From: a virus
Length of the DNA stretch: 24,954 bases
Strand: one strand, 5' to 3'
IMG/VR virus record: IMGVR_UViG_3300035670_007385
Span: 1 to 24,954 of that record
The notes beneath the pieces are model-generated. The model did not search any database. It had not been told where the DNA came from and worked only from the letters and a program-made list of their open reading frames with translations. The position numbers and the translations under genes are program-made. Below are positions 1 through 24,954 of this stretch, piece after piece. Numbering within the stretch: the stretch's first letter is position 1; every line of letters starts with the position of its first letter.

Positions 1-48
1 GGCACCGGGACCGCGCGGGCCTCGGTCAACTGGAAGGAAGTCCGGTGA
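1..48 (+). CDS. 3' end of an upstream late gene (partial)
   Basis: The first 16 codons are open in frame 1 and end at TGA 46-48, encoding the last 15 residues of a protein whose body lies left of the window. The tail is short and basic and cannot be assigned. In HK97-type phages the gene before the protease region is usually the portal protein, so a portal C-terminus is the best guess from position only. The stop overlaps the GTG of the next small ORF (GTGA), the same coupling seen at most junctions in this window. Confidence 0.5.
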   Translation, partial: GTGTARASVNWKEVR

Positions 49-167
49 TCCTGCTCCTGTTCACGCCCTATCCCGGCAAGGCGGGCGGCATCGCCGGCCC
101 CGTGAGCCCAACCCGACGCCGTCGGCGCGATACCGACGACGACCTGCTCCTGGCGGTGCTGCTGTGA
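45..167 (+). CDS. Small 40-aa protein of unknown function
   Basis: A GTG at 45 overlaps the upstream stop. A purine-rich GGAAGGAAG lies just before it and can serve as ribosome binding site. The 40-residue product has a hydrophobic start (VILLLF), a glycine/proline middle, a five-Arg run followed by an acidic Asp stretch, and a leucine-rich end. I do not recognise a family. The coupled start and filled gap argue that it is translated, but it could also be a chance frame. Its place before the head protein and protease suggests a head-module accessory role at most. Confidence 0.45.
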   Translation: MILLLFTPYPGKAGGIAGPVSPTRRRRRDTDDDLLLAVLL

Positions 168-1316: not shown

Positions 1317-1368
1317 CCAATCCGGTGCTCACACGGGCGGTCCCTACCCGAAAGGAACCACCCGCGCC

Positions 1369-2652
1369 ATGAACGGAGACCTCGACCAGAAGGTCGAAGC
1401 CCTCACCAAGTCCATCATGGACCTGGCTTCGGAACTCAAGGACAAGAACGAACTGCCGCTCGACCGCGTGACCGCGATCGAGGCCGAGATCGCCGCCAAG
1501 TCGGCCGCGATGGACGACCTCATCGCCGAGAAGCGCGCCAAGGAAGTCGATGCGCGGCTCGCGCAGCTCGACGAGCGCCTCAAGGCGTACACGCGCGAGG
1601 CTGCCGAGTCCAAGACGGCCGCGATCCTCGCGGGCGTCGAGCACCGCACCAGCGGCGTCAAGTCGGTCGGCAAGTACTCCGAGACCAACTTCCTCTCCGC
1701 GCTCGTCGCGCGCCGCTACGGCGACACCGACGCGCAGGAGTTCGTGAAGGGCGTCCTCGGCACGTCGGCCGCGACCGGCCAGGCCATCGTCCCCGGGAAC
1801 TTCGTCGCGGACCTCGTGACGCAGCTCGGGCTCGTCAACATCTACCGCGGCCTGTTCGACGTCACCAACGGCGTCTCGGGCGCCGGGGTCAACGTCCCGT
1901 ACGAGGCGACCGCGGTCACCGCGGCGCTCGTGCAGGGCGCCTACGGCTCGAACAAGGACATCCGCGACTTCGGGTTCGCGTCCGCGACCGCCACGCTCTA
2001 CACGATCGCGCAGATCGCCGACATCGGCAATCAGCTCCTTCGCCAGAGCAACGGCGGGGCCGAGCGCGCCGCCCGTCGGCGCCTCGCGCAGTCCATCGGC
2101 ATGACCGAGGCTGCGTACGTCACGAACGGCTCCGGTTCGGGCGAGCCGCTCGGGTTCTTCCCGGCCATCATGGCCTACGGCGACGTCGCCGCGTTCAAGA
2201 CGGCCCTCTCGTCCGAGCCGCGGCTCGCCACGCTCGCCCGGGGCATCGCCGCCCTGGAGACGCGCGGCGTCATGCGCGACAACCTCGTCATGGTCACCGA
2301 CCCGACCACCTACTGGGAGATCGCGTCCGAGGGCCTCGGCTCCGCGTACGCCGGCGGCTGGGCCGTCGATCCCGCAGGTGGCGCGGCGGCCAACCCGCCC
2401 ATCACCTCGGCGTGGGGCGTCCCGCTCCGCTCCGACCCGAACTGGCCGTCCGCCGAGGCCGGCAAGCTGCTCATCATCGACCGGTCCGAAGTGGACATCT
2501 TCACCGGCCAGGAGTTCCGCATCGACGTTTCGAGCGAGGCGGGCAGCCGCTTCGACCAGAACGTCACGGGCTTCCGCGCCGAGGAGGAGTTCGCCTTCAA
2601 CGCCGAGCCCGCCGTTCGCACGGGCCGCGTCCAGAAGGTGACCGGCCTCTAG
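1369..2652 (+). CDS. Major capsid protein, HK97 fold
   Basis: A 427-aa coat protein building the icosahedral head. Residues 1 to about 85 are a charged heptad-like coiled coil (many Glu, Lys, Ala, Leu), corresponding to the scaffolding delta domain that the neighbouring protease cleaves. The remainder has the HK97 coat pattern: QAIVPGNF near residue 135, VPYE, a central helix with LLRQSNGG, a GSGSGEPLGFF turn, then ALETRGVMRDNLVMV and a C-terminal strand region ending at FNAEPAVRTGRV. I chose ATG 1369 because AAAGGAAC stands just upstream and the coiled coil starts there. The frame is open back to 1234, but that part overlaps the protease gene. Cleavage is expected in the region after the coiled coil; the exact site is not visible. 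Confidence 0.93.
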   Translation: MNGDLDQKVEALTKSIMDLASELKDKNELPLDRVTAIEAEIAAKSAAMDDLIAEKRAKEVDARLAQLDERLKAYTREAAESKTAAILAGVEHRTSGVKSVGKYSETNFLSALVARRYGDTDAQEFVKGVLGTSAATGQAIVPGNFVADLVTQLGLVNIYRGLFDVTNGVSGAGVNVPYEATAVTAALVQGAYGSNKDIRDFGFASATATLYTIAQIADIGNQLLRQSNGGAERAARRRLAQSIGMTEAAYVTNGSGSGEPLGFFPAIMAYGDVAAFKTALSSEPRLATLARGIAALETRGVMRDNLVMVTDPTTYWEIASEGLGSAYAGGWAVDPAGGAAANPPITSAWGVPLRSDPNWPSAEAGKLLIIDRSEVDIFTGQEFRIDVSSEAGSRFDQNVTGFRAEEEFAFNAEPAVRTGRVQKVTGL

Positions 2653-2708: not shown

Positions 2709-2729
2709 TGACCCCACGTCACGGGGTCA
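2709..2729 (+). terminator. Hairpin after the capsid gene, possible attenuator
   Basis: A perfect 7-bp inverted repeat, TGACCCC / GGGGTCA, with a 7-nt loop lies 56 nt after the capsid stop. No run of T follows (CTTCC only), so full termination is doubtful. It could attenuate transcription so that capsid mRNA exceeds that of the downstream cassette, or protect the 3' end of capsid mRNA. Confidence 0.4.
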
Positions 2730-2735
2730 CTTCCA

Positions 2736-2799
2736 TGCCCATCGGGACGGCAGACGTCCGGGTTCGCCCGGAGTGTGAGCCGGCTGCCGTCCCGGGGCA
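2736..2799 (+). other. Long bulged stem-loop in the non-coding spacer
   Basis: Arms 2743-2753 (CGGGACGGCAG) and 2784-2794 (CTGCCGTCCCG) are perfectly complementary over 11 bp. The stem extends outward by five more pairs (2736-2740 with 2795-2799) after a 2-nt bulge at 2741-2742. Inside the loop is a second perfect hairpin, TCCGGG-TTCG-CCCGGA (2757-2772). The whole 175-nt spacer between capsid stop and the next likely start is otherwise without a gene. Such a nested structure is unlikely to arise by chance and suggests a functional RNA, for example a transcript stabiliser, an attenuator or a processing site. It is not a tRNA: no D or anticodon arms can be drawn. Confidence 0.6.
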
Positions 2800-2827
2800 C
2801 CCACCTTCTGCGGAGGGCTCACAACCC

Positions 2828-3553
2828 GTGGAACCGTTCACGCTCATCGAACGTCGCACGCCGTCGGGGCTCAAGTTCCCGGCGACCGAGCGGCACGGCA
2901 CCAACGACGGCGCCGTGATGTCGGCCATCCTGGGCGACGACGAGTACCGGCTGGCGTCGCTCTACCCGATCACCGGCTGGGTCCTCGACGTCGGCGCCCA
3001 CGTCGGCACGGTGGCGCTCGCCATCGCGCTCGACAACCCGGACGCCCGCGTCGTCGCGGTCGAGCCGCTGCCCGCCAACGTCGCGTCCATCGAGAAGAAC
3101 ATCGAGCTCGCCGAACTGGGCGACCGGGTGCTCGTGGAGGCCGCGGCGGCCACCGACACGCGCCACAAGACCATCGACGTCACCTTCAACTACGACTCGG
3201 TGACGGGCGTTGACCAGCGCTACCTCGACCAGTGCCGCTACGTCGGCAACATCTTCCGGCAGGTGCCGGACGGGCCGACCGTGATGTCGGCCTCGGTCAC
3301 GGTCCCGGGCATCTCGCTCCAGCGGCTGCTCACCAAGTACAAGATCGACCGGGTGACGCTGCTCAAGATCGACTGCGAGGGCTGCGAGTGGCAGTTCCTC
3401 CGCAGCAAGGCGATCACGCGGGTGGACCGCATCGTGGGCGAGTACCACGACTCGATGACGTTCGAGGATCTGCGGACCATCCTGGAGCCGACCCACGTCC
3501 TGACCCAATGGACGGAAGGGCCGGTCGGCCTGTTCGGGGCGGTGCTCCGATGA
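2828..3553 (+). CDS. FkbM-family methyltransferase (first of two)
   Basis: A 241-aa SAM-dependent methyltransferase of the FkbM type, a family that commonly O-methylates sugars or small metabolites. Visible motifs: the SAM-binding loop LDVGAHVGTVALA near residues 52-64, the acidic end of beta-2 in VEPLPANV near 77-84, and the family-typical LLKIDCEGCEW near 178-188 followed by GEYHDS. GTG 2828 is preferred because GGAGG lies 11 nt upstream. The frame is open to an ATG at 2735, but that would turn the structured spacer into a Pro/Gly-rich leader. It overlaps the next gene by ATGA. Context with glycosyltransferases suggests methylation of a glycan attached to a virion protein; the acceptor is unknown. 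Confidence 0.85.
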   Translation: MEPFTLIERRTPSGLKFPATERHGTNDGAVMSAILGDDEYRLASLYPITGWVLDVGAHVGTVALAIALDNPDARVVAVEPLPANVASIEKNIELAELGDRVLVEAAAATDTRHKTIDVTFNYDSVTGVDQRYLDQCRYVGNIFRQVPDGPTVMSASVTVPGISLQRLLTKYKIDRVTLLKIDCEGCEWQFLRSKAITRVDRIVGEYHDSMTFEDLRTILEPTHVLTQWTEGPVGLFGAVLR

Positions 3554-4239
3554 AGACCGAAGTCCTCCGGTCGCCGCGCGGCAAGCGCGCCGTCCTCTCG
3601 GCCCGCGACCAGACGACCGACCTCTCGGTCCTCGGCTGCTTCTTCGCGGGCGTGGCGGGCTCCCCCATCGACGACGAGTACGGGCTCGCGGACCTGTACC
3701 TCCGCGGCCGGTTCGTGGACGTCGGCGCCCACATCGGCGGCGTGACGGTGGCCGTCCTGCTCGACAACCCGCAGGCGACGGCCATCCTGGTCGAGCCCGT
3801 GCCCGAGAACCTCAAGGTCATCACGGCGAACCTCGCCAGCAACGGCCTCGCCGGTCGCTGCCAGGTCATCGCCGGCGCCGTCGGGACCGACAGCGTGTAC
3901 TACGGCTTCGAGGGCTCCGAGCACCTCATGTCGAACCGCTACATCGCCAACATCACGGGCGTGGTGCATGGCAAGCGGCCCCTGTCGGAGCACATCGCGG
4001 TCCGGCGGGTCGAGCTCGACGAGCTGCTGCCGTGCGACGTGATGAAGCTCGACTGCGAGGGCGGCGAGTACGCCCTCTTCGCGGACCCGCGCATCACGAC
4101 GGTGCCGTACATCTTCGGGGAGTTCCACGGCGACCCTGACGCCGGGGCCGAGGCCGTCATCGCGGCGCTCGGCGCCACGCACGACGTCGAGATCGTCAAG
4201 GGCGAGGACCAGGGCAACTTCCGGGCGGTGGCGAAATGA
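3550..4239 (+). CDS. FkbM-family methyltransferase (second of two)
   Basis: A 229-aa paralogue of the preceding methyltransferase. It has FVDVGAHIGGVTVA near residues 54-67, LVEPVPENLKVI near 78-89, VMKLDCEGGEY near 163-173, and GEFHGD close to the C-terminus. Shared wording around motif I (DVGAH-G-V, LDNP-A, VEP-P-N) indicates a tandem duplication followed by divergence. The substrate-facing middle differs strongly, so the two probably methylate different positions or sugars. Start ATG 3550 overlaps the upstream TGA, and its own stop overlaps the next ATG, so translation is coupled on both sides. The acceptor is unknown. Confidence 0.85.
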   Translation: MKTEVLRSPRGKRAVLSARDQTTDLSVLGCFFAGVAGSPIDDEYGLADLYLRGRFVDVGAHIGGVTVAVLLDNPQATAILVEPVPENLKVITANLASNGLAGRCQVIAGAVGTDSVYYGFEGSEHLMSNRYIANITGVVHGKRPLSEHIAVRRVELDELLPCDVMKLDCEGGEYALFADPRITTVPYIFGEFHGDPDAGAEAVIAALGATHDVEIVKGEDQGNFRAVAK

Positions 4240-5339
4240 CCACGGCGCTCGGCTACGGCATCCCGAACGTCCTGCTCCTGACGAGCCACAGCATCGCCGA
4301 GCACGACGACCTCGACATGTTCACGCGGATGGGCGTCCCGACGTTCTCCATCGGCGCGTACACCAACCCGCAGCGACCGGGCGACGACAAGCGGCCCGCT
4401 TTGTCAAACGCACCGTACTTTGCGGAGTTCGAGGCGCTTTGTCACGAACAACGGACAAAGCACGGCGACGAGCCCACCGACTTCGTCATCGACTGGGCCA
4501 AGGGCGACCTGCATCCCGATATCGTCGAGTGGGCCGACGTCATCATCGTCCACCACTTCCCCGAGGCGTGGATCGGCGGCAACTGGCCGAACATCGCGGA
4601 CAAGCGCGTCGTCTGGCGCACCTGCGGCCAGTCCGACCCGCGCCTTGAGCGGTCGATGTACCGCTACCGCCGCGAAGGACTGGAGATCGTCCGGTACTCG
4701 CCGCGCGAGCGCACCGTGTTCAGCCGCACTGACGCCTTCGCGGGCGAGGACGCGATGATCCGGTTCGGCAAGGACCCGACCGAGTGGGCGGGCTGGCGGG
4801 GCGACGTCGAGGTCGTCGGCAACATCACGCAGCACATGGCGCAGCGCGGCGACGCCTGCGGCTTCTGGTACTGGGCCGAGGCGACCAAGAACCTGCCGGT
4901 GCGGCCGGCGGGCCCGGGCTCCGACGCCATCGGCGGCATCGGGATACTCGGGTTCGAGGCGATGCGGGAGTACCTCCGCAGCATCCGCACCTACCTGTAC
5001 ACCGGCACCCGGCCAGCCTCGTACACCCTCGGGCTCATCGAGGCGATGATGACGGGCGTGCCGGTCGTGTCCATCGGGCGCGGCGCGTTCGGCTGCGACG
5101 GGCTCCTCGAGCCGTTCGGCATCAACCACGACGACCCGGCGGTGGCCCGGGCCGACCTCGACTTCCTGCTCCGCGACGAGCAGGCGGCGCTCGACATGTC
5201 GGTCGCCACGCGGGAGCGGGCCATCGAGCTCTTCGCGCTCGACCGGGTCATGCGCGACTGGCGCGAGTTCCTCGGCATCCCCGAGCCCTTCGAGGGCTGG
5301 ATGGACACGACGCCCTACTTCGAGGAGGGCGCGGCGTGA
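4236..5339 (+). CDS. Glycosyltransferase, GT-B fold (first of three)
   Basis: A 367-aa predicted sugar transferase. The N-terminus starts with a short Rossmann strand (NVLLLTSHS) and a helix. Residues 98-106 include DVIIVHHFP and 124-132 VVWRTCGQS, as in the acceptor domain of GT-B enzymes. The C-terminal nucleotide-sugar domain shows RTYLYTGTRP followed by GLIEAMMTGVPVVSIG near 265-280, the place where GT4-type enzymes carry the E-x-M-x-G-P signature. It uses an activated sugar and an unknown acceptor. It starts in an ATGA overlap with the methyltransferase and ends in a GTGA overlap with a zinc-ribbon ORF. An AT-richer patch with repeats lies in codons 54-76. Confidence 0.75.
   Translation: MTTALGYGIPNVLLLTSHSIAEHDDLDMFTRMGVPTFSIGAYTNPQRPGDDKRPALSNAPYFAEFEALCHEQRTKHGDEPTDFVIDWAKGDLHPDIVEWADVIIVHHFPEAWIGGNWPNIADKRVVWRTCGQSDPRLERSMYRYRREGLEIVRYSPRERTVFSRTDAFAGEDAMIRFGKDPTEWAGWRGDVEVVGNITQHMAQRGDACGFWYWAEATKNLPVRPAGPGSDAIGGIGILGFEAMREYLRSIRTYLYTGTRPASYTLGLIEAMMTGVPVVSIGRGAFGCDGLLEPFGINHDDPAVARADLDFLLRDEQAALDMSVATRERAIELFALDRVMRDWREFLGIPEPFEGWMDTTPYFEEGAA
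4397..4461 (+). repeat. CGCTTTGTCA direct repeats and inverted copy inside a gene
   Basis: CGCTTTGTCA occurs at 4397-4406 and 4435-4444, 38 bp apart. The second copy forms an 8-bp inverted repeat with GACAAAGC at 4454-4461 (10-nt loop). The patch uses TTG, TCA and CTT codons that are rare nearby. It may be a protein-binding or RNA hairpin site, or simply coincidence in a locally AT-rich stretch. Confidence 0.4.
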
Positions 5340-5500
5340 GCGAGCATCGGGTCGGCCCCGTGGCCGTCGTCATCCGCCGCTGCTCCGAGTGTCACGGCCT
5401 CCTGTGGCGCGAGCCACTCTGGACGTGGACACATAGCCGGTGCGAGGAGACCCGAGCCGATCGGGTCCGCTCCACGGTCCATCCGGCGGCACGGGCATGA
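5336..5500 (+). CDS. 54-aa zinc-ribbon microprotein in the glycan cassette
   Basis: GTG 5336 overlaps the previous stop (GTGA), and TGA 5498-5500 overlaps the ATG of the next gene (ATGA), so both ends are coupled. The product has C16-x2-C19 and a later H33/C36 pair, consistent with one small zinc site, within an otherwise Arg-rich sequence. No family is recognised. It fills the gap between two glycosyltransferase genes exactly, which supports translation. Function may be binding to a cassette enzyme or to nucleic acid; neither is shown. Confidence 0.6.
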   Translation: MSEHRVGPVAVVIRRCSECHGLLWREPLWTWTHSRCEETRADRVRSTVHPAARA

Positions 5501-6546
5501 GAGTCCTCGCCGACTTCCACCATCACGACCTCTTCGAGTCGCTCCAGATCGTGTTCCGCGACCGCTTCGGTTGGGAGCTCGCCCGCCCGGTCGGGATGGA
5601 GTGGTACGAGCAGGAGTATTGGAACCTCGAACGGGTCTGGCACGGTGACGCCGTCGCCCGCCAGTACCTCGGGCTCGCTGGCGATGACCGCGACCTCGGC
5701 GACCGCTGGGAGCGCGACGACCGGAGCCACATCGGGCGCACGTTCACGATGCTCACCGTCGAGCAGGCGCGGGCGTGGCAGCCCGACATCGTCATCGCCT
5801 CGGTGGCGCACAACCAGGAAGGGCTCACGCGCTTCGGCCGCGAGGTCGGCGCCAAAGTCGTGTTCCACCAGGGCAACGTCCGTCTCGACCCGCACGAGGA
5901 CCGCTGGGAGCTCGCGGACGCGGCCATCCTGACGACCACGACCAAGTACCCGACGCCCATCCCGCACGTCACCGTGCGACAGGAGTTCAGCCTCGACGAC
6001 TTCCGGTACGAGCCGCCGCCGCGGGGCGAGCGCCTCGCGGCCTCGTCCTTCGTCCAATGCCTAGCCGAGACCGGCTGGGCGTACGAGATGCTGCTCAACG
6101 TCATCCGGGCCGCGCCCGAGGTCGATTGGCGGGTCTACGGGTCGTACGGGAGCATCCCGCCCGACCAGTACGCCGCTGGCAACCTCAACGTCTGCGCCGA
6201 CATCGGCGCGGCGATGCGGGCGTCCGACGTCGCGGTCCACGTCAAGCGGTGGGGCGACGGCTTCGGCCACGTCATTCACAACTGGTTCGCCGTCGGGCGT
6301 CCCGTCTGGGGCACGGCCGACTGGTACGCCGACTCGCTCGCGGCGCCCTTGTGGGTCGAGGGCGTCACGTCGTTCGACCTGGCGGCCCGGAACACTCACG
6401 AGAACGCGGCGCTCATGCGGCGCTTCCACGAGGACGAGGACTTCCACCTGCGGGCGTGCGAGAACGCCGCGGCGCGGTTCCGCGAGGTCGTGGACTTCGC
6501 CGCCGACGCCGAGCAGATCCGGCGCCTGCTGGAGTCGGTCGCATGA
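5497..6546 (+). CDS. Glycosyltransferase-like protein, GT-B type (second of three)
   Basis: A 349-aa protein with ATG 5497 in the ATGA overlap. The sequence opens MRVLADFHHHDL. A W-rich segment and QPDIVIASVAHN (residues about 94-105) resemble the acceptor half of GT-B enzymes, and AKVVFHQGN follows. The C-terminal half contains VDWRVYGSYG, then SDVAVHVKRWGDGFGHVIHNWFAVGRP at about 240-267. This is the donor-sugar domain position, although the usual Glu of the E-x7-E motif is not obvious. It may therefore be a divergent or altered-specificity transferase. It sits between two other transferases and is coupled to both sides, so a role in building the same glycan is likely. Confidence 0.65.
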   Translation: MRVLADFHHHDLFESLQIVFRDRFGWELARPVGMEWYEQEYWNLERVWHGDAVARQYLGLAGDDRDLGDRWERDDRSHIGRTFTMLTVEQARAWQPDIVIASVAHNQEGLTRFGREVGAKVVFHQGNVRLDPHEDRWELADAAILTTTTKYPTPIPHVTVRQEFSLDDFRYEPPPRGERLAASSFVQCLAETGWAYEMLLNVIRAAPEVDWRVYGSYGSIPPDQYAAGNLNVCADIGAAMRASDVAVHVKRWGDGFGHVIHNWFAVGRPVWGTADWYADSLAAPLWVEGVTSFDLAARNTHENAALMRRFHEDEDFHLRACENAAARFREVVDFAADAEQIRRLLESVA

Positions 6547-7817
6547 AGCTGCTCATCTTCGGCCACTACTCGCACACGGGCTTCGGCGTCGTCACCGAGG
6601 CGCTCGGAGCCGAGTTCATCGCCCGGGGCATCGACGTGCGGGTCCTCGCGGTCAACCATCGCGGCGAGCCCGTCCGGGGCGCGCTCGCGGGCCGTGTCTG
6701 GCCCGCCGCCATGTTCGGGGATGCCTTCGGCGGCAACCTGTCGTCCAAGGCCATCGACGGCTCGCTCTGGCGGCAGCTCCACGGCGACGACGACTGGAAG
6801 CCCGACCAGGTGCTCGTCATCTCCGATATGTCCGGCTTCCAAGGGCACATCGGCCAGAAGGTGACGGAGCAATGGCTCTCGCTCCCGGTCTGGCACTACT
6901 GCCCCATCGAGGGCGACAACCTCCCGGTCTCGTGGCGCGACGTCTGGAACCGCCCGGGCGGCGCCGAGAGCCGGACCCCGTTCTGGCCGGTGGCGATGAG
7001 CGACTACGGCGCCCGCGTCATCAGCGAGCATCTCGGCCGCGGCGTGCCGCGCATCTACCACGGCGTCGACTCGGCGACCTTCCGGCCCGTGTCGGCGGCC
7101 GAACCGCTTGCGTACAAGGGCAAGTGGCTCCGCTCCAAGGACGACTGCAAGACGGCGCTCGGCTTCCGGGTGACCGACAAGGTCATCCTCAGAACCGATA
7201 GGCACGTCCCGCGCAAGTTCTACCACACGCTCTTCCAGGCGATGGAGCCCGTGTTCGCGGACGACCCGAACGCGGTGCTGGTCATCCATTGCCGGCCGCA
7301 GGACGAGGGCGGCAACCTGCTCGAAGAGATCGCGCGGCTGCCCAAGGACTACTGGTCCCGAGTGAAGCTCACGCAGGCGCATGACACCTGGCGCGGGCTG
7401 CCGACCGAGGAGCTCGTCGTCCTGATGAACGCGGCCGACCTCTACGTCTCGACCACGTCTGGCGAGGGCTTCGGCCTCACGCTCGCCGAGTCGCTCGCGT
7501 GCGAGGTGCCGGTCGTCACGACGGACTGGGCCGCGGGCCCCGAGGTCATCGGCCCCGGCGGCATCGTCGTCGCCCCGCTGCACGACCAGTACGGCGAGGT
7601 CGTCCGCTATCACAGCACCTACGGCATGGACTGGGCCGTCCCCGACGCCCGCGGCTTCGTGGACCCCATCCGCACCCTGCTCGACCGGCCGCAGCGCCGC
7701 CGCCAGATGGGCGAGGCGGGCCGCCGCCACGTCGCCCGCTCCTTCCGCTGGTCGGACGCCGCCGACCAGTTCGTCGCCCTGTTCGAGACCGCCCTACCCT
7801 CCGAGGTCGCCGCGTGA
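6543..7817 (+). CDS. GT4-family glycosyltransferase (third of three)
   Basis: A 424-aa retaining glycosyltransferase of the GT4 type and the clearest of the three. It begins with LLIFGHYSHTGFGVVTEAL, the N-terminal Rossmann strand and glycine-rich loop. The linker has PRIYHGVDSATFRP near 172-185, the usual 'NGVD..F.P' signature. The donor domain has LRTDRHVPRKFYH, then LYVSTTSGEGFGLTLAESLACEVPV at about 300-325, including the diagnostic E-x7-E (Glu in GEGFGL and AES). It ends in a C-terminal helix. ATG 6543 overlaps the previous stop, and its TGA overlaps the GTG of the head-tail connector gene. This directly couples the sugar cassette to a virion gene. Confidence 0.9.
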   Translation: MKLLIFGHYSHTGFGVVTEALGAEFIARGIDVRVLAVNHRGEPVRGALAGRVWPAAMFGDAFGGNLSSKAIDGSLWRQLHGDDDWKPDQVLVISDMSGFQGHIGQKVTEQWLSLPVWHYCPIEGDNLPVSWRDVWNRPGGAESRTPFWPVAMSDYGARVISEHLGRGVPRIYHGVDSATFRPVSAAEPLAYKGKWLRSKDDCKTALGFRVTDKVILRTDRHVPRKFYHTLFQAMEPVFADDPNAVLVIHCRPQDEGGNLLEEIARLPKDYWSRVKLTQAHDTWRGLPTEELVVLMNAADLYVSTTSGEGFGLTLAESLACEVPVVTTDWAAGPEVIGPGGIVVAPLHDQYGEVVRYHSTYGMDWAVPDARGFVDPIRTLLDRPQRRRQMGEAGRRHVARSFRWSDAADQFVALFETALPSEVAA

Positions 7818-8455
7818 GTCAACCGCTCGTCACCCTGACCGAGATCAAGGAATACATCGGCCTCGTCGGGACGGGCGATGACACGCTCTTGGCGTCCATC
7901 GCCTCGAACGCGACGGCCATCGCCGAGCGCCACACGGGCCGCGTGCTGGCCGTGACGTCCAACGTCACCCGGTACTACTCCACCGACGGCAACCGCGCGC
8001 TCGTCGTTCACGACCGCCCGTTCTCCGACTCGTCGCGGTCGGTGACGCTCAACGGAGTCACGCTCACCGAGAACACCGACGTCTGGTTCCTCCCCGACCG
8101 CCGGGGCGACGGGACCATCACCACGGCCATCCAGCTCGCGCCGTTCGACACGACGCACGCCTCCTGGTATCTCCGCGAGCCGCAGTGGTTCGACCGGAAC
8201 CTCGACCGGCTGTCCATCGGCGCCGGCGGCACGCCGAACGACCTCCGAATCCAGGGCGTCGAGGGCCACCCGGCCATCACCGGGGACACCCGGCTCGCCA
8301 TGCTCGAACTCACGGCGTGGCTGTACTTCCGCGCCAAGTCGGGCGCCTCGGGCGTGGCGGCGGTCGCCACCGACCTCGACATCTCATCCCTCCCGACGAC
8401 CTACCGCGAGTGGGTCGAGCAGTGGCGCGTCCGCGCCGCCGTGGCGCTCATCTGA
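7814..8455 (+). CDS. Head-tail connector protein (gp6-like)
   Basis: A 213-aa protein, GTG 7814 in a GTGA overlap. Its N-terminal 45 residues match the connector pattern: VTLTEIKEYIGL, then DDTLLASIASNATAIAERHTGR, an all-helical start that forms a ring under the portal in HK97-like phages. The remainder contains a beta-rich insertion (about 50-150) and a C-terminal helix with LTAWLYFRAKSG and a W-rich end, giving a longer protein than the 90-110 aa minimal connectors. It ends in a TGATG overlap with the next gene. Identity rests on the N-terminal motif and on position between capsid genes and tail genes. Confidence 0.8.
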   Translation: MSQPLVTLTEIKEYIGLVGTGDDTLLASIASNATAIAERHTGRVLAVTSNVTRYYSTDGNRALVVHDRPFSDSSRSVTLNGVTLTENTDVWFLPDRRGDGTITTAIQLAPFDTTHASWYLREPQWFDRNLDRLSIGAGGTPNDLRIQGVEGHPAITGDTRLAMLELTAWLYFRAKSGASGVAAVATDLDISSLPTTYREWVEQWRVRAAVALI

Positions 8456-8931
8456 TGGAGAACGTCAAGGGCACCAAGAGCCTCATCCGGCGGCTCAACG
8501 CGATTGGCGAGATGGCCGACACCGAGGCGCTGAAGGACTGGCAGGTCAAGACGACCATTCTCGCCAAGGAGAAGCACCGCCCGAACAAGAAGACGGGCAC
8601 CACGGCGCGGTCAATCCAGCCCGCCGACATCAGCCGGGACGAGGCGAGGGTCGAGGCGGGCGGCGCCGCCGTGTTCCTGGAGTTCGGGACCGCCCCGCAC
8701 ACGATCACGCCGCGGAACGGTCGCTTCCTCGTGTTCGCGCCGAACGCCGCCAACCGACGGCTCTCGGGCGCGCCGCGCAAGGGCACGAGCCGGTCGGACC
8801 TCGTGTTCGCGCGCAGGGTCAACCATCCCGGGACCAAGCCGTACCCGTTCATGGTCCCCGCCGGCGAGGAAGCGCGGGATGACATCTGGACGAAGGACGG
8901 CGCCATCAAGCGCTGGAACAAGGCGGGCTAG
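8455..8931 (+). CDS. HK97 gp10-like neck/tail completion protein
   Basis: A 158-aa protein. It has a helical basic start, then VFLEFGTAPHTITPRNG near residues 76-92, and VNHPGTKPYPFMVPA near 121-135. The 'EFGT..H...P' and 'HPGT.P.PFM.PA' motifs are diagnostic of the HK97 gp10 family, which sits at the head-tail junction or helps complete the tail. The start shares its first base with the previous stop. The stop TAG is immediately followed by the next ATG. Size and order (connector, gp10-like, terminator) match siphoviruses. Confidence 0.85.
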   Translation: MENVKGTKSLIRRLNAIGEMADTEALKDWQVKTTILAKEKHRPNKKTGTTARSIQPADISRDEARVEAGGAAVFLEFGTAPHTITPRNGRFLVFAPNAANRRLSGAPRKGTSRSDLVFARRVNHPGTKPYPFMVPAGEEARDDIWTKDGAIKRWNKAG

Positions 8932-9366
8932 ATGGCGACGACCTTCCGCAACGACATCGTGGACGGGATCATGACGGTCCTCAACGCCTACATCGCGGCC
9001 AACCCGACCCGCCTGGTCCGCGCCTACCGGTCCAAGCCGCTCAACGTGGCCGCCGGCGACCTGCCGTCGGTCTACGTGGACGTTCGGAACGAGGACATTC
9101 GCCACTCGGAGGGCACCCGGACGCGGGTCATGTCGCCCTCGGTCGTGGTCGTGGACCGGGCGACCGACAACATCGAGACGGGTGACCGGATGGACCCGCT
9201 CATCGACGGTCTGGTGGATGCGTTCACGGCGACCCCTCAGCTCATGACGGGGACGGTCTGGGACCGCATGACCATCCGCGACGTGCCGATCGAGATCGGC
9301 GAGTACGAGTACGCCGGGGTCCGCATCACCATCCCGGACGTCACCATCCGCGAGGGCCGCGACTAG
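8932..9366 (+). CDS. Tail terminator / minor tail protein
   Basis: A 144-aa protein. It has an N-terminal helix (FRNDIVDGIMTVLNAYIAANP), a beta-strand pair with LPSVYVDVRNEDIRHSEGTRTR, then VVVVDRATDNIETGD, a helix with MDPLIDGLVDAF, and a final strand pair (YAGVRITIPDVTI). This matches the alpha/beta plan of tail terminator proteins that cap the growing tail tube at the head-proximal end. The position before the major tail protein supports it. Its TAG overlaps, in a CTAG palindrome, the stop of the antisense HNH gene. A ribosome binding site lies within the 3' end of the previous gene (AACAAGGCGGG). Confidence 0.75.
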   Translation: MATTFRNDIVDGIMTVLNAYIAANPTRLVRAYRSKPLNVAAGDLPSVYVDVRNEDIRHSEGTRTRVMSPSVVVVDRATDNIETGDRMDPLIDGLVDAFTATPQLMTGTVWDRMTIRDVPIEIGEYEYAGVRITIPDVTIREGRD

Positions 9367-9905
9367 CCCCCTGCCCTCCTGCGCGGCGCGCTCCGTCCGA
9401 GTGGGCGGTCGCGGGTGACGGGCGGATACGGCACCGGCTCCACGTCGGGCCATGAGAAGCCCCGGACGATCTGGCTCACGTTCGCGCGGGTCGTGCCGTA
9501 GCGGGCGGCGATGTCGTCGTGGTAGTGGCCCGCAGCGGCCATGCCGCGGATGTGCGCCACCTGGTCGGCCGTGAGCCGCGCGTTCCGGTTGCGCTCACCC
9601 GCCTGCACCTGACCGACGAACGGCGAGAACCGCCGCCCGCGGTTGTCCATGTCCGCCATGTTGTCGCGTTGACTACCGAGGCGCAGGTGGTCAGGACGGA
9701 CGCACGGCGGGTTGTCGCACGAGTGCAGGACCGATAGCCCATCGGGGATCGGTCCATTGGTCAGTTCCCACGCCGCGCGGTGCGCCCGCGTTTGGCGCCG
9801 TCCATCCCAGAACACCCCGTAGCCGTCCCGGCGGTGGGTGCCTGCCCATTCCCAACAGCCGGGTCCCTTGGAGACACGGCTCCAGAAGTCGTCGTCAGCG
9901 GCCAT
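9363..9905 (-). CDS. Free-standing HNH homing endonuclease, antisense in the tail operon
   Basis: A 180-aa protein read from the minus strand. It carries the HNH_3-type arrangement: CWEWAG at 17-22, an arginine-rich strand with RAHRAAWEL at 40-48, then LHSCDNPPCVRPDHLRLG at 60-76, which supplies the catalytic His61 and zinc-site Cys63/Cys68. The C-terminus (about 120-165) has a helix-turn-helix-like segment, ADQVAHIRGMAAAG then DDIAARYGTTRANVSQIVRG, usual for DNA recognition by homing endonucleases. I chose ATG 9905 because a -10 element lies 7 nt upstream; an in-frame ATG at 9935 would lie upstream of that promoter. It separates tail terminator from major tail protein and probably arrived by homing. 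No Shine-Dalgarno is seen. Confidence 0.85.
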   Translation of the reverse strand: MAADDDFWSRVSKGPGCWEWAGTHRRDGYGVFWDGRRQTRAHRAAWELTNGPIPDGLSVLHSCDNPPCVRPDHLRLGSQRDNMADMDNRGRRFSPFVGQVQAGERNRNARLTADQVAHIRGMAAAGHYHDDIAARYGTTRANVSQIVRGFSWPDVEPVPYPPVTRDRPLGRSAPRRRAGG

Positions 9906-9912
9906 GTAGCGG

Positions 9913-9921
9913 AGTATACCA
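9913..9921 (-). promoter_or_regulatory. Extended -10 promoter for the antisense HNH gene
   Basis: On the minus strand the bases read TGG-TATACT, an extended -10 (TGn plus 5/6 match to TATAAT). The hexamer ends 7 nt before the ATG at 9905, so transcription would start at or next to the start codon and give a leaderless mRNA. No convincing -35 is present, as is common for extended -10 sites. The element overlaps the GGAG ribosome binding site (9911-9914) of the major tail gene on the other strand. Confidence 0.5.
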
Positions 9922-10940
9922 TGTCGCCAATCCAAGGGTTTACTAGGTTTCGCAAGAACCAGATCGGGGTCACGACGTCGCAGTCGTCAAACACGGGCTC
10001 CACCCGGCGCGTGCCGTGGCGGGGCGTCCCCGAGTACGACCCCAAGCGAGAGACGCCCGACGTGGACACGGGCTCGCTCGACCCCACGATGGCCGCCTAC
10101 CTTGGCGCCGCCGAGATCACGCAGTCGCTCGAAGGCAAGGCCGCGTACAACGACCTGCCGTACATCTACGCGCTCGGCATCAAGGGCGGCGTCACCGCCA
10201 CGGGCTCGGCCACCGGGCAGATTTGGACGTACCAGGCGGCCAGCCTGACCTCGGACGCCTTCGACTACGCGACGGTCCAGAACGCCGACGACGTGACCTC
10301 GGACTCCATCGTCGCGGGCGGCGGGGTCATCGACTCGTTCTCGTTCGAGTTCGACGACGAACTCGGCGCGTGGGACCTGTCGGCCGACTTCATCTTCTCG
10401 CGTGCGTCCTTCGGTGACGGCCTCACGGGCGGGCTCACCGTGGACGAGAGCCCGAACTGGCTCTACGGCGCCCACACGGTCATCTACATGGACACGGTCG
10501 CAGGGTCCATCGGCCTGACGCCCATCGCGGACGCCGTCCACGGGATGGAGTTCTCGGTCAACAACAACCTCGACCAGAAGCGGTTCGCCAACGGCTCGAA
10601 CGCGGGCTTCCAGCTCGCGGGCTTCGGCCGCGGCGGCCGGGAGATCGAGTTCGTCCTCACCGTCGCCAAGACGACCGCCACGGTCACCGAGGCGCAGACC
10701 ATCGACGACTCGCCGGTTCCCACCCGGTACTTCGACATCGTGACCACCTCGACCGAGATGGTCGCCGGCGGCTCCACGCCGTTCCGCAACAGCATCCGCT
10801 TCCCGGCGGAACTCGTCAGCCGCGAGGACGACGAGATCAACAACAACACCGTCCTCAAGTTGACCTATCGAGGGAAGTACGACTCGACCCTCGGGTACGC
10901 CCTCCTGGCGACCTGCACGAACGAACTCGCCACGCTCTAG
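9921..10940 (+). CDS. Major tail (tube) protein
   Basis: A 339-aa structural protein. ATG 9921 has GCGGAG 6 nt upstream and follows the divergent HNH start by 15 bp. It lies between the tail terminator and the two tail assembly chaperone frames, the standard place for the tube subunit. The sequence is beta-rich and acidic. Features include FRFRKNQIGVTT-like N-terminal strand, a long loop, DSFSFEFDDELGAWDLSADFI near 137-157, SVNNNLDQKRFANGS near 212-226, and a C-terminal strand region with KLTYRGKYDS. Tail tube proteins in siphoviruses typically carry such N-arm, beta-barrel and C-terminal parts. Length is above the 200-250 aa of minimal tube proteins, suggesting an added surface domain. Confidence 0.8.
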   Translation: MSPIQGFTRFRKNQIGVTTSQSSNTGSTRRVPWRGVPEYDPKRETPDVDTGSLDPTMAAYLGAAEITQSLEGKAAYNDLPYIYALGIKGGVTATGSATGQIWTYQAASLTSDAFDYATVQNADDVTSDSIVAGGGVIDSFSFEFDDELGAWDLSADFIFSRASFGDGLTGGLTVDESPNWLYGAHTVIYMDTVAGSIGLTPIADAVHGMEFSVNNNLDQKRFANGSNAGFQLAGFGRGGREIEFVLTVAKTTATVTEAQTIDDSPVPTRYFDIVTTSTEMVAGGSTPFRNSIRFPAELVSREDDEINNNTVLKLTYRGKYDSTLGYALLATCTNELATL

Positions 10941-10962
10941 CCCACCGGAGGCCATTGCTCAC

Positions 10963-11394
10963 ATGACCGAACCGATCCCCGTCCGGGTGCGCGACTGCGC
11001 GTGCCCGGGCGACCCCCATCCAGACGGCGACGTCGTCTACCTGCGCCCGCATCTCAACATCGACGGCGGCGAGGCGGCCGAGGCCGACCTCATCGAGTCG
11101 ATGGCCGACGAGCGCGAGCTCAAGCGCCGGTGGCTGCGGACGTTCGTGAAGCACGGCGCCGTCTCCTGGAACCTGACCGACGCGGAGGGCGAGCCCGTCC
11201 CGTTCGACGTGGACGCGATCCTCGACGACTGGACGCTCGCCCGCCCCGTTGCCGACAAGGCCGCCGACCTGTACACCCAGAGCGTCATCGCCCCTTTCGT
11301 GACGAAACCGGGAGCGCGATCGCCGACTGGACAGACGGCGCCTACGACCTCAGCCACCCGCGGGCAGACGCGCAAGTCGTCCGCATCGCGGTAG
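10963..11394 (+). CDS. Tail assembly chaperone, short (gpG-like) product
   Basis: A 143-aa protein with GGAGG 11 nt upstream of ATG 10963. It has an N-terminal Cys/Asp/Pro segment, then helices with AEADLIESMADERELKRRWLRTFVKHGAV and an acidic middle. It lies directly between tube protein and tape measure, where siphoviruses encode two chaperones that share an N-terminus and coat the tape measure during tail assembly. The last 31 residues past the slip site are Ser/Thr/Arg-rich and look non-conserved, as expected for the unshifted frame. Confidence 0.75.
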   Translation: MTEPIPVRVRDCACPGDPHPDGDVVYLRPHLNIDGGEAAEADLIESMADERELKRRWLRTFVKHGAVSWNLTDAEGEPVPFDVDAILDDWTLARPVADKAADLYTQSVIAPFVTKPGARSPTGQTAPTTSATRGQTRKSSASR

Positions 11395-11564: not shown

Positions 11565-13604
11565 ATGGCATCAGCCGAGACCGCGAAACTCTTTGTCGCG
11601 CTCAACCTCAAGGACGGGCTCACCAGCGGCATCAAGAAGGCCACCGGCACCCTGACCAACTTCGACCGCGGCGTCGGCCGGGTCGGCAAGGGCGTCGGCC
11701 AGATGGGCCTCGGCTTCGCCCGCGCCGGGGTCATCATCGCCGGGGCCGCGGTCACCGGGCTCGCCGCCGCGGCGAAGGTCGGCGCGGACTTCGAGGCGCA
11801 GCTCAACATCATCAATACGATCGCGCGCAAGACGCCCGAGGATCTGAAGGTCGTCGGCGACGGCATCCGGGCCTTGGCACGCGACGGCCGAGGCGACCTC
11901 GCGGACCTCTCGGCCGGGTACTACGACATCCTCTCGGCGGGCATCGCCGCCGCGGACGCGCAGAGCGTCCTCGACGCCTCCACGCGACTCGCCATCGGCG
12001 GCCTGTCCACGACGGCGCAGTCGGTTGACCTCATCACGACCGCCATCAACGCGTACGGCCAGTCGGCCTCGATGGCGACCTATGACGCCGACCTGTTCGC
12101 CAAGTCCATCGAGCTCGGCAAGGTCACCGCCGACGAGATCGCCGCGTCGTTCGCCAACGTCGCGCCGATCGCCGCGCAGCAGGGCATCAACATCGAGGAG
12201 ATCGCCGCCGCGTATGCCGCGCTGACGGCACAGGGCACGCCGGCCGCCGAAGTCACGACCCAGATGAGCCGGGCGATCCTCGACCTGCTCAGCCCGAACA
12301 AGGAACTCAACGCCCTCCAGGAGAAGACCGGCAAGAACTTCATGGCGATCGCCAAGGAGAAGGGCCTCGTCGTGGCCCTCCAGGCGATGCGCGATGCGGT
12401 CGGCGGCGACGAGCAGGCGTTCAAGGATCTGTTCGGTCGCGTCGAGGGCTACAAGTTCGCTCTCCAGACGACCGGCCCGCAACAGGAGAAGTACAACGAG
12501 GCGCTCGCGGCGATGGGCGCCGCGGGCGGCACCGCGACGGCCCAGATGGCCGAGCGGATGCAGGGCCTCGCGTTCCAGACGGGCCGCCTCAAGGCCAACC
12601 TCATCGACGTCGGCATCGAGCTCGCCGCCGGGTTCACGCCCGCGCTCGGGCGGGCGGCCGATAAGCTCTCGACCTTCCTCTCGGACTCGGGCAACCGGAG
12701 TTCCATCCGGCAGCTCGGCCAGGACATCGGGTCGGCCATCGACTCCATCGACTGGGACAAGATGCTCGGCTTTGCCAAGGCGCTCGTCGGCGCGCTCAAG
12801 CCCGCCGTGACGCTGGCAACGACCATCGCGTCCATCGTGGCGAACCTGCCGCCCGGACTGCTCGGCGCGGGCGCCGGCCTCGTCGTGACGAACAAGCTCT
12901 CGGGCGGGCTCATCGCCGACGGGCTCGGCAACATCCTCGGCGGCCTCGGACAGACCGCGCTTGCGACCGCGACGGGCGGCGCCATCGGCGCCACGCCGGT
13001 CCGGGTCGTGAACTGGCCCGCGGGCGGGCTCGGCGGTGGGACGGTCACCGGCGGCAGGACCGTCGGCGGCGCGCTCGGAACCGCGGCAAAGATCGTGGCG
13101 CCGGTGGCCGTCCTAGCCGCCGGCATCCAGGCCACCGGGATCAACGATCCCGGCCGGACCATCGTCCCCGGCACGGGCAACGTCGCTCGCCAGTCCACGC
13201 AGAACGCCACCGTGGCGGGCAAGCTGGCGACCATCGACGCCTCGCTGAAGGCACTCGCGGGCCGCACGGATACCAACGCGCAGCGGCTCACCGCCCAGTT
13301 GCTGGCGGCGCGGGCGCAACTGGTCGCCAACAAGTCGGCGGCCACGCAGGATAGCCTCCGCGAGACGATGGCCGAGAAGCAGTCCATTGCCGCGCAGCGG
13401 ACCGCCGCGGCGACCACGGGCGCGAAGCTGAACACCGCCAACGCCCGCCTCGCCGCCATCCAGCGGAAGCGGACCTCGTTCACCAGCGTCACGAACGTCA
13501 GCATCCCGGTGACCATCCGCGACATCCAAGGCGCGCAGAACCGCCGCCGCCGCATCGTCAAGCGGTCGGTCCTTGAGGGGTCCACCGACCCGAGGTCGGT
13601 CTAG
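11565..13604 (+). CDS. Tail tape measure protein
   Basis: A 679-aa protein, the longest in the early tail region, starting immediately after the chaperone stop. Residues 45-75 are a hydrophobic Ala/Gly stretch, and a second one lies near 455-490. The core at about 90-260 matches the TP901-type tape measure domain: LSAGYYDILSAG, AINAYGQSA, LGKVTADEIAASFANVAPIA, and AAAYAALTAQGTPAAE. The C-terminal part is Ala/Gly-rich with helical Lys/Gln/Arg segments and ends in a basic tail. Using the usual 0.15 nm per residue, the tail would be near 100 nm. Its length sets tail length and it may help DNA pass the host membrane. Confidence 0.92.
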   Translation: MASAETAKLFVALNLKDGLTSGIKKATGTLTNFDRGVGRVGKGVGQMGLGFARAGVIIAGAAVTGLAAAAKVGADFEAQLNIINTIARKTPEDLKVVGDGIRALARDGRGDLADLSAGYYDILSAGIAAADAQSVLDASTRLAIGGLSTTAQSVDLITTAINAYGQSASMATYDADLFAKSIELGKVTADEIAASFANVAPIAAQQGINIEEIAAAYAALTAQGTPAAEVTTQMSRAILDLLSPNKELNALQEKTGKNFMAIAKEKGLVVALQAMRDAVGGDEQAFKDLFGRVEGYKFALQTTGPQQEKYNEALAAMGAAGGTATAQMAERMQGLAFQTGRLKANLIDVGIELAAGFTPALGRAADKLSTFLSDSGNRSSIRQLGQDIGSAIDSIDWDKMLGFAKALVGALKPAVTLATTIASIVANLPPGLLGAGAGLVVTNKLSGGLIADGLGNILGGLGQTALATATGGAIGATPVRVVNWPAGGLGGGTVTGGRTVGGALGTAAKIVAPVAVLAAGIQATGINDPGRTIVPGTGNVARQSTQNATVAGKLATIDASLKALAGRTDTNAQRLTAQLLAARAQLVANKSAATQDSLRETMAEKQSIAAQRTAAATTGAKLNTANARLAAIQRKRTSFTSVTNVSIPVTIRDIQGAQNRRRRIVKRSVLEGSTDPRSV

Positions 13605-23845: not shown

Positions 23846-24123
23846 ACCGGGGCGGGATCTACGCGCTGATCGACGCCGAGCGCGAGGCGCAGGCCGCCAA
23901 GTGGGGCGGGCAGCACGCATGGGGCCGGGGCGACTGCTCATCCCGCGAGGTGGACGAGACGGTCAAGGCGACCGTGCTGGCCGAGGAATGCGGCGAGGTC
24001 GGGCGGGCCGTGCTGGACGCGCGGCACGGGGACCTGCGGCGCGAACTGATCCAGGTGGCGGCCGTGGCCGTCGCGTGGCTGGAGTCATTCGAGGAAGAGG
24101 GGCCGAAACTATGGCAGTCCTAG
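23833..24123 (+). CDS. MazG-like nucleotide pyrophosphohydrolase
   Basis: A 96-aa all-alpha protein, ATG 23833 overlapping the helicase gene by 13 bp. It has an N-terminal helix with DAEREAQAAKWG, a loop with histidine, then E51-E52-x2-E55 (LAEECGEVGRA) and later RRELIQVAAVAVAWLES. The first part is the metal-binding ExxE pair of MazG-type enzymes. In the second the usual ExxD is ExxQ, a variant seen in phage versions of this family. The enzymes hydrolyse NTPs or modified nucleotides. With a methyltransferase next door, nucleotide pool cleaning during phage DNA synthesis or relief of host stringent signals are possible; the sequence does not decide. Confidence 0.7.
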   Translation: MARLNRGGIYALIDAEREAQAAKWGGQHAWGRGDCSSREVDETVKATVLAEECGEVGRAVLDARHGDLRRELIQVAAVAVAWLESFEEEGPKLWQS

Positions 24124-24954
24124 TCCAGCGGGTCACCGATACCTACGCCATCTACAACGGCGATTGCATGGAGGTCATGCCGACCCTGCCGACCGGATCG
24201 GTCGCGCTGTCGGTCTACTCCCCGCCATTCGCCGGACTCTACCAGTACAGCTCTTCCGAGCGAGACCTGTCGAACAGCCGCAACTACGACGAGTTCATGG
24301 CGCACTACGAGTTCGTGGTGCGGGAACTGCTCCGCCTGGCAATGCCGGGGCGGATGACGGCCGTCCACTGCATGGACATCCCACTCTCGAACACCGGCAA
24401 GGGCGACGCCCTGCTCGACTTCTCGGGCGACATCATCCGCCTGCACCAGCGGGTCGGGTGGGACTATGTCGCCCGGTACGCGGTGTGGAAGGAGCCGCTT
24501 ACCGTCCGCAACCGGACGATGATGAAGTCGCTCGCCCACAAGACGATCGTGGACGACTCGTCCCGCTGCTCGAACGCATCGGCCGACTACCTGCTCGTGT
24601 TCCGCAAGCGTGGCGAGAACCCGGTCCCGATCGCGCACCCTTCCGGGCTGACCGAGTACGCCGGGGCCCGAGAGATGCCGGCCGAGCTGCTGCGCTGGCG
24701 CGGCTGGACCGGCAACCAGATCGAGAACCGCTACAGCCATTGGATCTGGCGACAGTACGCCTCGGCGTTCTGGGATGACGTGCGGCTGGACCGGGTCCTC
24801 CCCTACCGGGAGAGCCGAGACGAGGAGGACGAGAAGCACGTCCATCCGCTCCAGCTCGACGTGATCGACCGGACGATCGTGATGTGGTCGAACCCGGGTG
24901 AGACCATCCTGACCCCGTTCATGGGCGTGGGCTCCGAGGTCTACTCGGCCGTCC
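24111..24954 (+). CDS. DNA methyltransferase, beta class (partial, runs off the window)
   Basis: An ATG at 24111 overlaps the previous gene by 13 bp; 281 codons are present without a stop. Motif IV is SPPF at residues 37-40, motif VIII-like parts follow, and motif I appears late as TPFMGVGS (268-275), the SAM-binding loop. Motif IV before I is the order of beta-class enzymes. Targets of this class are N4-cytosine or N6-adenine; SPPF fits either and sequence alone does not decide. The stretch of about 130-250 is the target-recognition region. It is probably an orphan modification enzyme protecting phage DNA from restriction, as no restriction nuclease is next to it in the window. Confidence 0.88.
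   Translation, partial: MAVLVQRVTDTYAIYNGDCMEVMPTLPTGSVALSVYSPPFAGLYQYSSSERDLSNSRNYDEFMAHYEFVVRELLRLAMPGRMTAVHCMDIPLSNTGKGDALLDFSGDIIRLHQRVGWDYVARYAVWKEPLTVRNRTMMKSLAHKTIVDDSSRCSNASADYLLVFRKRGENPVPIAHPSGLTEYAGAREMPAELLRWRGWTGNQIENRYSHWIWRQYASAFWDDVRLDRVLPYRESRDEEDEKHVHPLQLDVIDRTIVMWSNPGETILTPFMGVGSEVYSAV

Follow-up and report, generated by a model that had tools for sequence, protein, structure and literature searches.

We found that a slot with sugar-building genes, located between the gene for the major capsid protein (MCP) and that for the head-tail connector (HTC), is a core feature of a group of uncultured phages, one of which is represented by the IMG/VR record analyzed here in its entirety (24,954 bases; hereafter, the window). 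The cassette occupying this slot probably carries out cytoplasmic glycosylation of phage head proteins, the putative acceptors, with a variable O-methylated glycan.

In the window, the left border of the slot is formed by an HK97-type MCP gene at 1369..2652 (PF05065, 8.8e-20; phrog_10, 1.9e-26) and the right border by the HTC gene at 7814..8455 (PF05135, 5.3e-5; phrog_442, 2e-7). The six ORFs that the initial annotation had placed between them, at 2828-7817, are indeed open frames: the FkbM-family SAM methyltransferases FkbM1 (2828..3553, with a GTG start; PF05050, 7.6e-15; TIGR01444, 5e-24) and FkbM2 (3550..4239; PF05050, 7.9e-9), the predicted GT-B transferase GT1 (4236..5339), a 54-aa ORF of doubtful coding status with a CxxC...HxxC pattern (ORF54, 5336..5500), a second predicted GT-B transferase, GT2, from an unnamed family (5497..6546), and the GT4-type GT-B transferase GT3 with an EGFGLTLAE motif (6543..7817; PF00534, 4.8e-15; phrog_2170, 7e-25). 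The HTC gene is followed by a tail completion/Neck1 gene (8455..8931; phrog_5, 7e-9), and then by a tail terminator-like gene (8932-9366) and the tape measure gene (11565-13604), which flank the putative tail tube protein (9921..10940); the latter had no family match and is named by its position only. The genes from MCP to Neck1 and the putative tail tube gene are all on the plus strand. ARAGORN additionally reports a tRNA-Ser(GGA) on the minus strand at 16636-16731, antisense within an 836-aa tail gene, which is probably a false positive. A PADLOC search yielded no match for the cassette glycosyltransferases and only a weak one for FkbM1 (0.003), and a defence-system reading of the cassette was set aside.

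Consecutive genes from FkbM1 to HTC share a 4-bp overlap (ATGA/GTGA) at all six junctions, as described earlier, and it had been argued from this that translation of the cassette is coupled to that of the virion genes. While the overlaps themselves are confirmed, the argument is weak and we do not infer function from coupling: these operons have many overlaps, found in the window's relatives at 45 of 61 cassette-internal junctions and at 73 of 324 others (with start codons as chosen by our own gene caller); among GT3-HTC junctions, only 9 of 21 have a 4-bp overlap; and entry into the cassette proceeds not via an overlap, but through a structured leader, with 175 nt separating the MCP stop from FkbM1.

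Assignment of the enzymes as two FkbM methyltransferases and three GT-B transferases holds by profile for FkbM1, FkbM2 and GT3, and by predicted fold for GT1 and GT2. Both FkbM1 and FkbM2 score above the PF05050 cut-off (55.9 and 36.3 vs 22.7 bits), FkbM1 is also above that for TIGR01444 (85.4 vs 37.7), and GT3 exceeds the PF00534 cut-off (56 vs 26.4 bits), its EGFGLxxAE motif being conserved across 22 sequences. GT1, represented by a 24-sequence alignment, has no Pfam, PHROG or NCBIfam name and matches Pfam glycosyltransferase profiles below threshold only (15.7 vs 27 bits), and GT2, also aligned, has no match to these profiles. AlphaFold2 models of the two (pLDDT 92 and 93, respectively) gave best Foldseek matches to GT4-like enzymes for GT1 (E 3e-11), and matches to HepE and MshA for GT2 (E 1e-10); overall, the models resemble GT-B enzymes such as HepE, MshA, PimA and BshA with a TM of about 0.6, and we regard both with high confidence as transferases of predicted GT-B fold. 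It should be kept in mind that GT2 does not have the usual second glutamate of GT4 enzymes, showing there a DGFGHVIHN motif with an invariant His261, and its catalytic activity should be considered putative. The sixth member of the cassette, ORF54, had been listed as a zinc-ribbon microprotein and is weakly supported as such, with a GC3 of 0.81 vs 0.94-0.98 in its neighbours and no homologue in relatives; a different CxxC/CxxC ORF occupies the same GT1/GT2 junction in a contig from a metagenome-assembled genome (MAG) of Ca. Nanopelagicales (L043). The window's cassette enzymes have no clear membrane helix, and a family search of its cassette genes found neither a flippase nor a polymerase.

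To survey the slot, we scanned with MCP, GT3 and GT1 and, in a further and unbiased scan, with an alignment of the putative tail tube protein. This yielded about 100 loci, which were annotated by profile mapping, with near-identical contigs merged into groups. Most loci have the gene order MCP - FkbM - GT1 - GT2 - GT3 - HTC; some depart from it by insertions or by a minor rearrangement that puts GT1 ahead of FkbM. Conservation of the order is far beyond chance. GT3 was present in 53/53 and, in the tail tube scan, it precedes HTC in each of the 44 testable contig groups; among the 27 groups from that scan with both borders, GT3 was found in 27, GT1 together with GT2 in 24, and FkbM, by profile, in 23, with a copy number in relatives of one or two. 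The three that lack GT1/GT2 (L015, L068 and L100) have the slot filled with other genes, which in at least L015 are sugar genes. The MCPs of the group form two clades: those of clade A share 63% identity or more with that of the window, and those of clade B 38% or less. No relatives of MCP, GT1 or GT2 were found among 50,697 phage records. In clade B (for example, L031:6621-6764 and L032:5202-5363), a Lys/Ala-rich ORF of 47-66 aa lies directly after the capsid gene. The proposed correlation of the cassette with a 152-aa head protein did not hold up upon inspection: this protein occurs in the window and in L007 only, while the cassette is present in all, and it was dropped as a cassette partner. 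The Ca. Nanopelagicales contig contains GT1-GT2-GT3, but was not used for host assignment, as no tail-tube match was found in 396 genomes of its phylum.

Relatives add further sugar genes to the slot, including those for GDP-mannose dehydratase (3.8e-128), FdtA (5e-41), KAS III, SDR, GNAT, UDP-sugar dehydrogenase, epimerase and methyltransferases. L028 carries GDP-mannose 4,6-dehydratase; L031 carries an epimerase, a UDP-sugar dehydrogenase and a methyltransferase; L039 carries methyltransferases and a sub-threshold hexapeptide acetyltransferase; and L015 carries FdtA, GNAT, a ketoreductase, KAS III, GT2-type transferases and a protein that is ACP-like by eye, with no Pfam match. The slot is also occupied in unrelated phages. 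Four contigs (L040, L041, L049 and L050) belong to a lineage with a P22-type coat, in which a larger glycan island, with GT1, GT2, methyltransferase and GT-A genes, fills this slot from the coat to the head-tail adaptor (contig L041 stops before the adaptor). In the cultured Microcystis phage Mae-JY09, the genes between MCP and the head-tail adaptor include an epimerase and a homologue of GT3 (hmmsearch, 1e-24). Outside phages, GT1 homologues adjoin GDP-sugar genes on Bacillus and Paenibacillus chromosomes (L044-L048), and the GT1 family is therefore not virion-specific; in Bacillus the neighbours are GDP-mannose enzymes, a hint that GDP-linked sugars may be the donors. These Bacillus loci also contain repeated ‘ALEELALAHIMNAEAEKLQ’ proteins of unassigned family.

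Comparison of distance matrices sets GT3 apart from the other cassette enzymes. It correlates with MCP, HTC and the protease at r of 0.81, 0.87 and 0.81, respectively, which may be compared with 0.78 for MCP-HTC and 0.82 for MCP-protease, i.e. between head genes themselves. In contrast, correlations with MCP are 0.30 for GT1, 0.42 for GT2 and 0.13 for FkbM (a lower bound, owing to FkbM paralogues), even though these genes are located between MCP and GT3. Within clade B, GT3 yields 0.70 with HTC and 0.55 with MCP, and GT1, GT2 and FkbM yield 0.11-0.18 with MCP; within clade A, the GT3-MCP correlation vanishes (r=-0.04, n=10), and GT3 is not regarded as tracking head genes there. The A/B split can be placed on the trees of MCP, HTC, GT3 and GT2 with a single change, but takes four changes on that of GT1 and six on that of FkbM. 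On this pattern, GT3 probably reads a head protein, with GT1, GT2 and FkbM providing exchangeable outer steps.

From the observed gene content, predicted folds, universal slot and co-variation, we infer the acceptor, the order of steps, the identity of the sugars and the benefit as follows. The core module, residing in the late structural operon, would act in the cytoplasm on head proteins; GT3, as the proposed initiating transferase, would most likely place the first sugar onto a head protein; GT1 and GT2, exchanged between lineages, would extend the chain, and the FkbM enzymes would O-methylate it. Relatives would alter the sugar through slot enzymes of their own for sugar nucleotides, acyl groups and amino sugars, and each lineage would display on its particles a distinct methylated oligosaccharide, which would act as a shield or an adhesion surface. 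Decoration of the virion by a methylated oligosaccharide, as initially suggested, thus stands as the best reading of an inferred function, given the universal presence of the cassette, its fixed slot, soluble enzymes, GT3 co-variation and a slot shared with unrelated phages; as in a phage virion glycosylation system, phage-coded transferases are conserved together with virion genes.

MCP would be the default acceptor, and the main alternative, which is compatible with glycosylation of the head but which we consider to be distinctly the less probable choice, is a repeat protein rich in Ser/Thr, whose gene lies between those of portal and protease and which would form a mucin-like head decoration. 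About half of the contigs containing this region encode, immediately before the protease-like gene, a tandem-repeat protein with 17-28% S+T and frequently an acidic C-terminus, while MCP has 13% S+T; several clade B contigs, on the other hand, keep the cassette without any repeat protein. Such proteins are seen at L002:3838-5232, L011:7945-8955, L013:6154-7359 and L014:5142-5768. The window record begins inside this region, but retains at its very start a short plus-strand ORF (45..167) ending in ...RRDTDDDLLLAVLL, which resembles the acidic C-terminus of the repeat proteins upstream of the protease-like gene in relatives.

Enzymes of the GT4 and FkbM types are common in envelope glycan loci, and the cassette could instead act on sugars of the host cell wall or capsule, resulting in a superinfection block or lysogenic conversion. 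Such a role would agree with the grouping of Bacillus GT1 homologues with GDP-sugar genes and with the interpretation given to jumbo-phage glycosyltransferase clusters (PMC7824862), and location in the structural operon is compatible with late-infection use on host glycans. We nevertheless favour virion decoration, because the enzymes are soluble with no flippase or polymerase, reside in a structural operon, are universally present, and co-vary with the head, and we view action on the host surface as rather improbable. No membrane glycosyltransferase, flippase or lipid-carrier transferase was recognized in the slot, and the cassette does not show the combination of membrane flippase and membrane transferase typical of serotype-conversion (gtr-like) loci; an integrase is present in only 4 of 18 long contigs, indicating no tie to lysogeny; and a cassette that is universal, keeps a fixed position next to head genes across two or three unrelated types of phage and has a GT3 that tracks the head genes is unlike a moron. 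Glycosylation of phage DNA as part of base hypermodification is very improbable, even though phage glycosyltransferases act in this way in other systems (Pyle 2024, as cited in PMC12619734) and the window encodes a DNA N4/N6 methylase (24111-24953), since no other base-modification gene is seen in the window, thymidylate synthase, the sole family searched in relatives, is found in 1 of 18 long ones (records that may be fragments), and the head-gene slot, FkbM and sugar-synthesis genes are better suited to protein glycans.

The start of the cassette lies within a covarying RNA (2709-2833, plus strand) consisting of three hairpins. H1 (2709..2729) is formed by TGACCCC and GGGGTCA separated by 7 nt; H2 (2744..2793), the main hairpin, is formed by GGGACGGCAG ... 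CTGCCGTCCC and holds in its large loop an anti-tag, TGTGAGCC (2774-2781), which complements the cassette start; and H3 (2806..2833) encloses the Shine-Dalgarno sequence GGAGG (2812-2816), the tag GGCTCACA (2816-2823) and the GTG start at 2828. In 16 clade A contigs, the reverse complement of the 6-8 nt after the Shine-Dalgarno sequence is found upstream, and in most of them it is in the loop of H2, the stem of which spans 8-18 bp (12-14 as a rule), with the start codon lying inside H3; L007 was left unresolved by the hairpin search, and the H2 loop of the window is larger than those of its relatives and contains an inner hairpin. Stems were paired from the loop outward, since the MAFFT leader alignment misaligned L105. 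In clade A relatives, all 12 H2 pair positions counted are made by at least two kinds of base pair, and both partners vary; in H3, pairs 3-5 also show changes on both sides, and the stem covaries with ATG/GTG start codons.

The same motif, GCTCACA, recurs on the plus strand in the MCP leader (1327..1333) and at the start codon of the gene that follows the putative tail tube gene (10957..10963). Depending on the lineage, the tag is GCTCGC, GCTCAC or GCGCTC, and in most clade A contigs it is present in the leaders of MCP and tail tube and at the start codon that comes next; it was also recovered by a blind k-mer search, with a shuffle P of 0.005-0.015 in the six contigs having the tag in all four regions. 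Loops are more complementary to the leaders than their shuffled versions are (P<0.05) in almost every clade A contig tested, as well as in five clade B contigs (L028, L036, L094, L095 and L104), the loops of which are unrelated; the window was left out of this test due to its large H2 loop, and the Fisher P over all 35 contigs, about 3e-13, combines related and hence not independent contigs. The tail tube leader of the window is broken by a reverse-strand HNH-like ORF and has no tag near the start. This ORF, at 9363-9659 on the minus strand, has no Pfam match and possibly represents a homing endonuclease insertion. Covarying post-capsid hairpins with lineage-specific tags are seen at 2653-2833 in the window, L008:11291-11407, L013:10097-10218, L028:8223-8346 and in L094. 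The tail tube leaders of L008, L009, L011, L014 and L022 are about 95 nt long and look attenuator-like, with the hairpin GGCCCGCTCTGGGCC, a terminator-like hairpin with a T-run, and GCCCAGAG near the Shine-Dalgarno sequence.

A comparison with Rfam 15, with hits accepted up to E<=1, returned none near 2653-2830, and neither a tRNA nor an Rfam element could be placed at the MCP-cassette junction; a promoter scan gave nothing useful, and the tag is not viewed as a DNA operator, as H2 and H3 covary in the way that a folded strand would. With the case evenly balanced in our judgement, the capsid-cassette junction could be a regulatory RNA absent from the libraries searched, in which the hairpin loop pairs with tags at the starts of the cassette, the capsid gene, the putative tail tube gene and the next tail gene, either as a loop-loop contact in cis or by way of a small RNA derived from the 3′UTR; the relative amounts of capsid, tube and glycan enzymes would be set in this manner. 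Tag and loop may interact in cis, in trans or via a protein. If such an RNA operates, its tags at several late genes would constitute a new way to tune virion stoichiometry.

Phage glycosyltransferases are usually viewed as sporadic accessory genes, while here one is as constant as the capsid and co-varies with it, which points to a capsid-matched sugar coat indispensable to the group; that unrelated phages use this slot as well suggests that a glycan island between capsid and connector is a general arrangement. Mae-JY09 shares with the group a GT3 homologue and an epimerase in the slot, but has no GT1, GT2 or FkbM, and its MCP is unrelated. In mycobacteriophages Che8, Corndog and Myrna, phage-encoded transferases glycosylate the capsid or the tail tube (PMC12363180), and the Che8 system, gp108-gp110, which yields capsid glycans, is described by Freeman et al. 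2023 as reported in PMC12363180 and PMC11256854. The mycobacteriophage parallel drawn in the initial annotation is functional: Che8 gp108-110 likewise comprise three transferases and a methyltransferase domain, but are of the GT2/GT25 and TylF/Methyltransf_24 types rather than GT-B/FkbM, none of the cassette profiles match them significantly, and they are located at 56-59 kb, at the right genome end, far from the capsid gene rather than in a capsid-connector slot. Che8 may thus be regarded as a working precedent through unrelated enzymes, with glycans carried on its capsid. Chloroviruses glycosylate their capsid autonomously with virus-coded glycosyltransferases, GDP-mannose dehydratase and a predicted methyltransferase domain, yielding a methylated capsid glycan (PMC5408694), and their GT4 B736L (3oy2) is among the GT3 profile matches; they differ in having a eukaryotic host, an N-linked glycan, and genes outside any single capsid-side slot. 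The set in the L015 slot is comparable to the Pseudomonas flagellin viosamine island, in which ACP, KAS III, ketoreductase, acetyltransferase and methyltransferase build an acylated, O-methylated amino sugar that decorates a surface protein (PMC3927599), although that island serves a bacterial flagellin and its dTDP-viosamine aminotransferase has no counterpart in L015. Finally, glycosyltransferase clusters in jumbo cyanophages are sporadic (PMC7824862), whereas those of the window's group are part of the core gene set. Overall, the kinds of enzymes are known and their constancy is unusual, describing a variant of phage virion glycosylation combined with a possibly new RNA control element.
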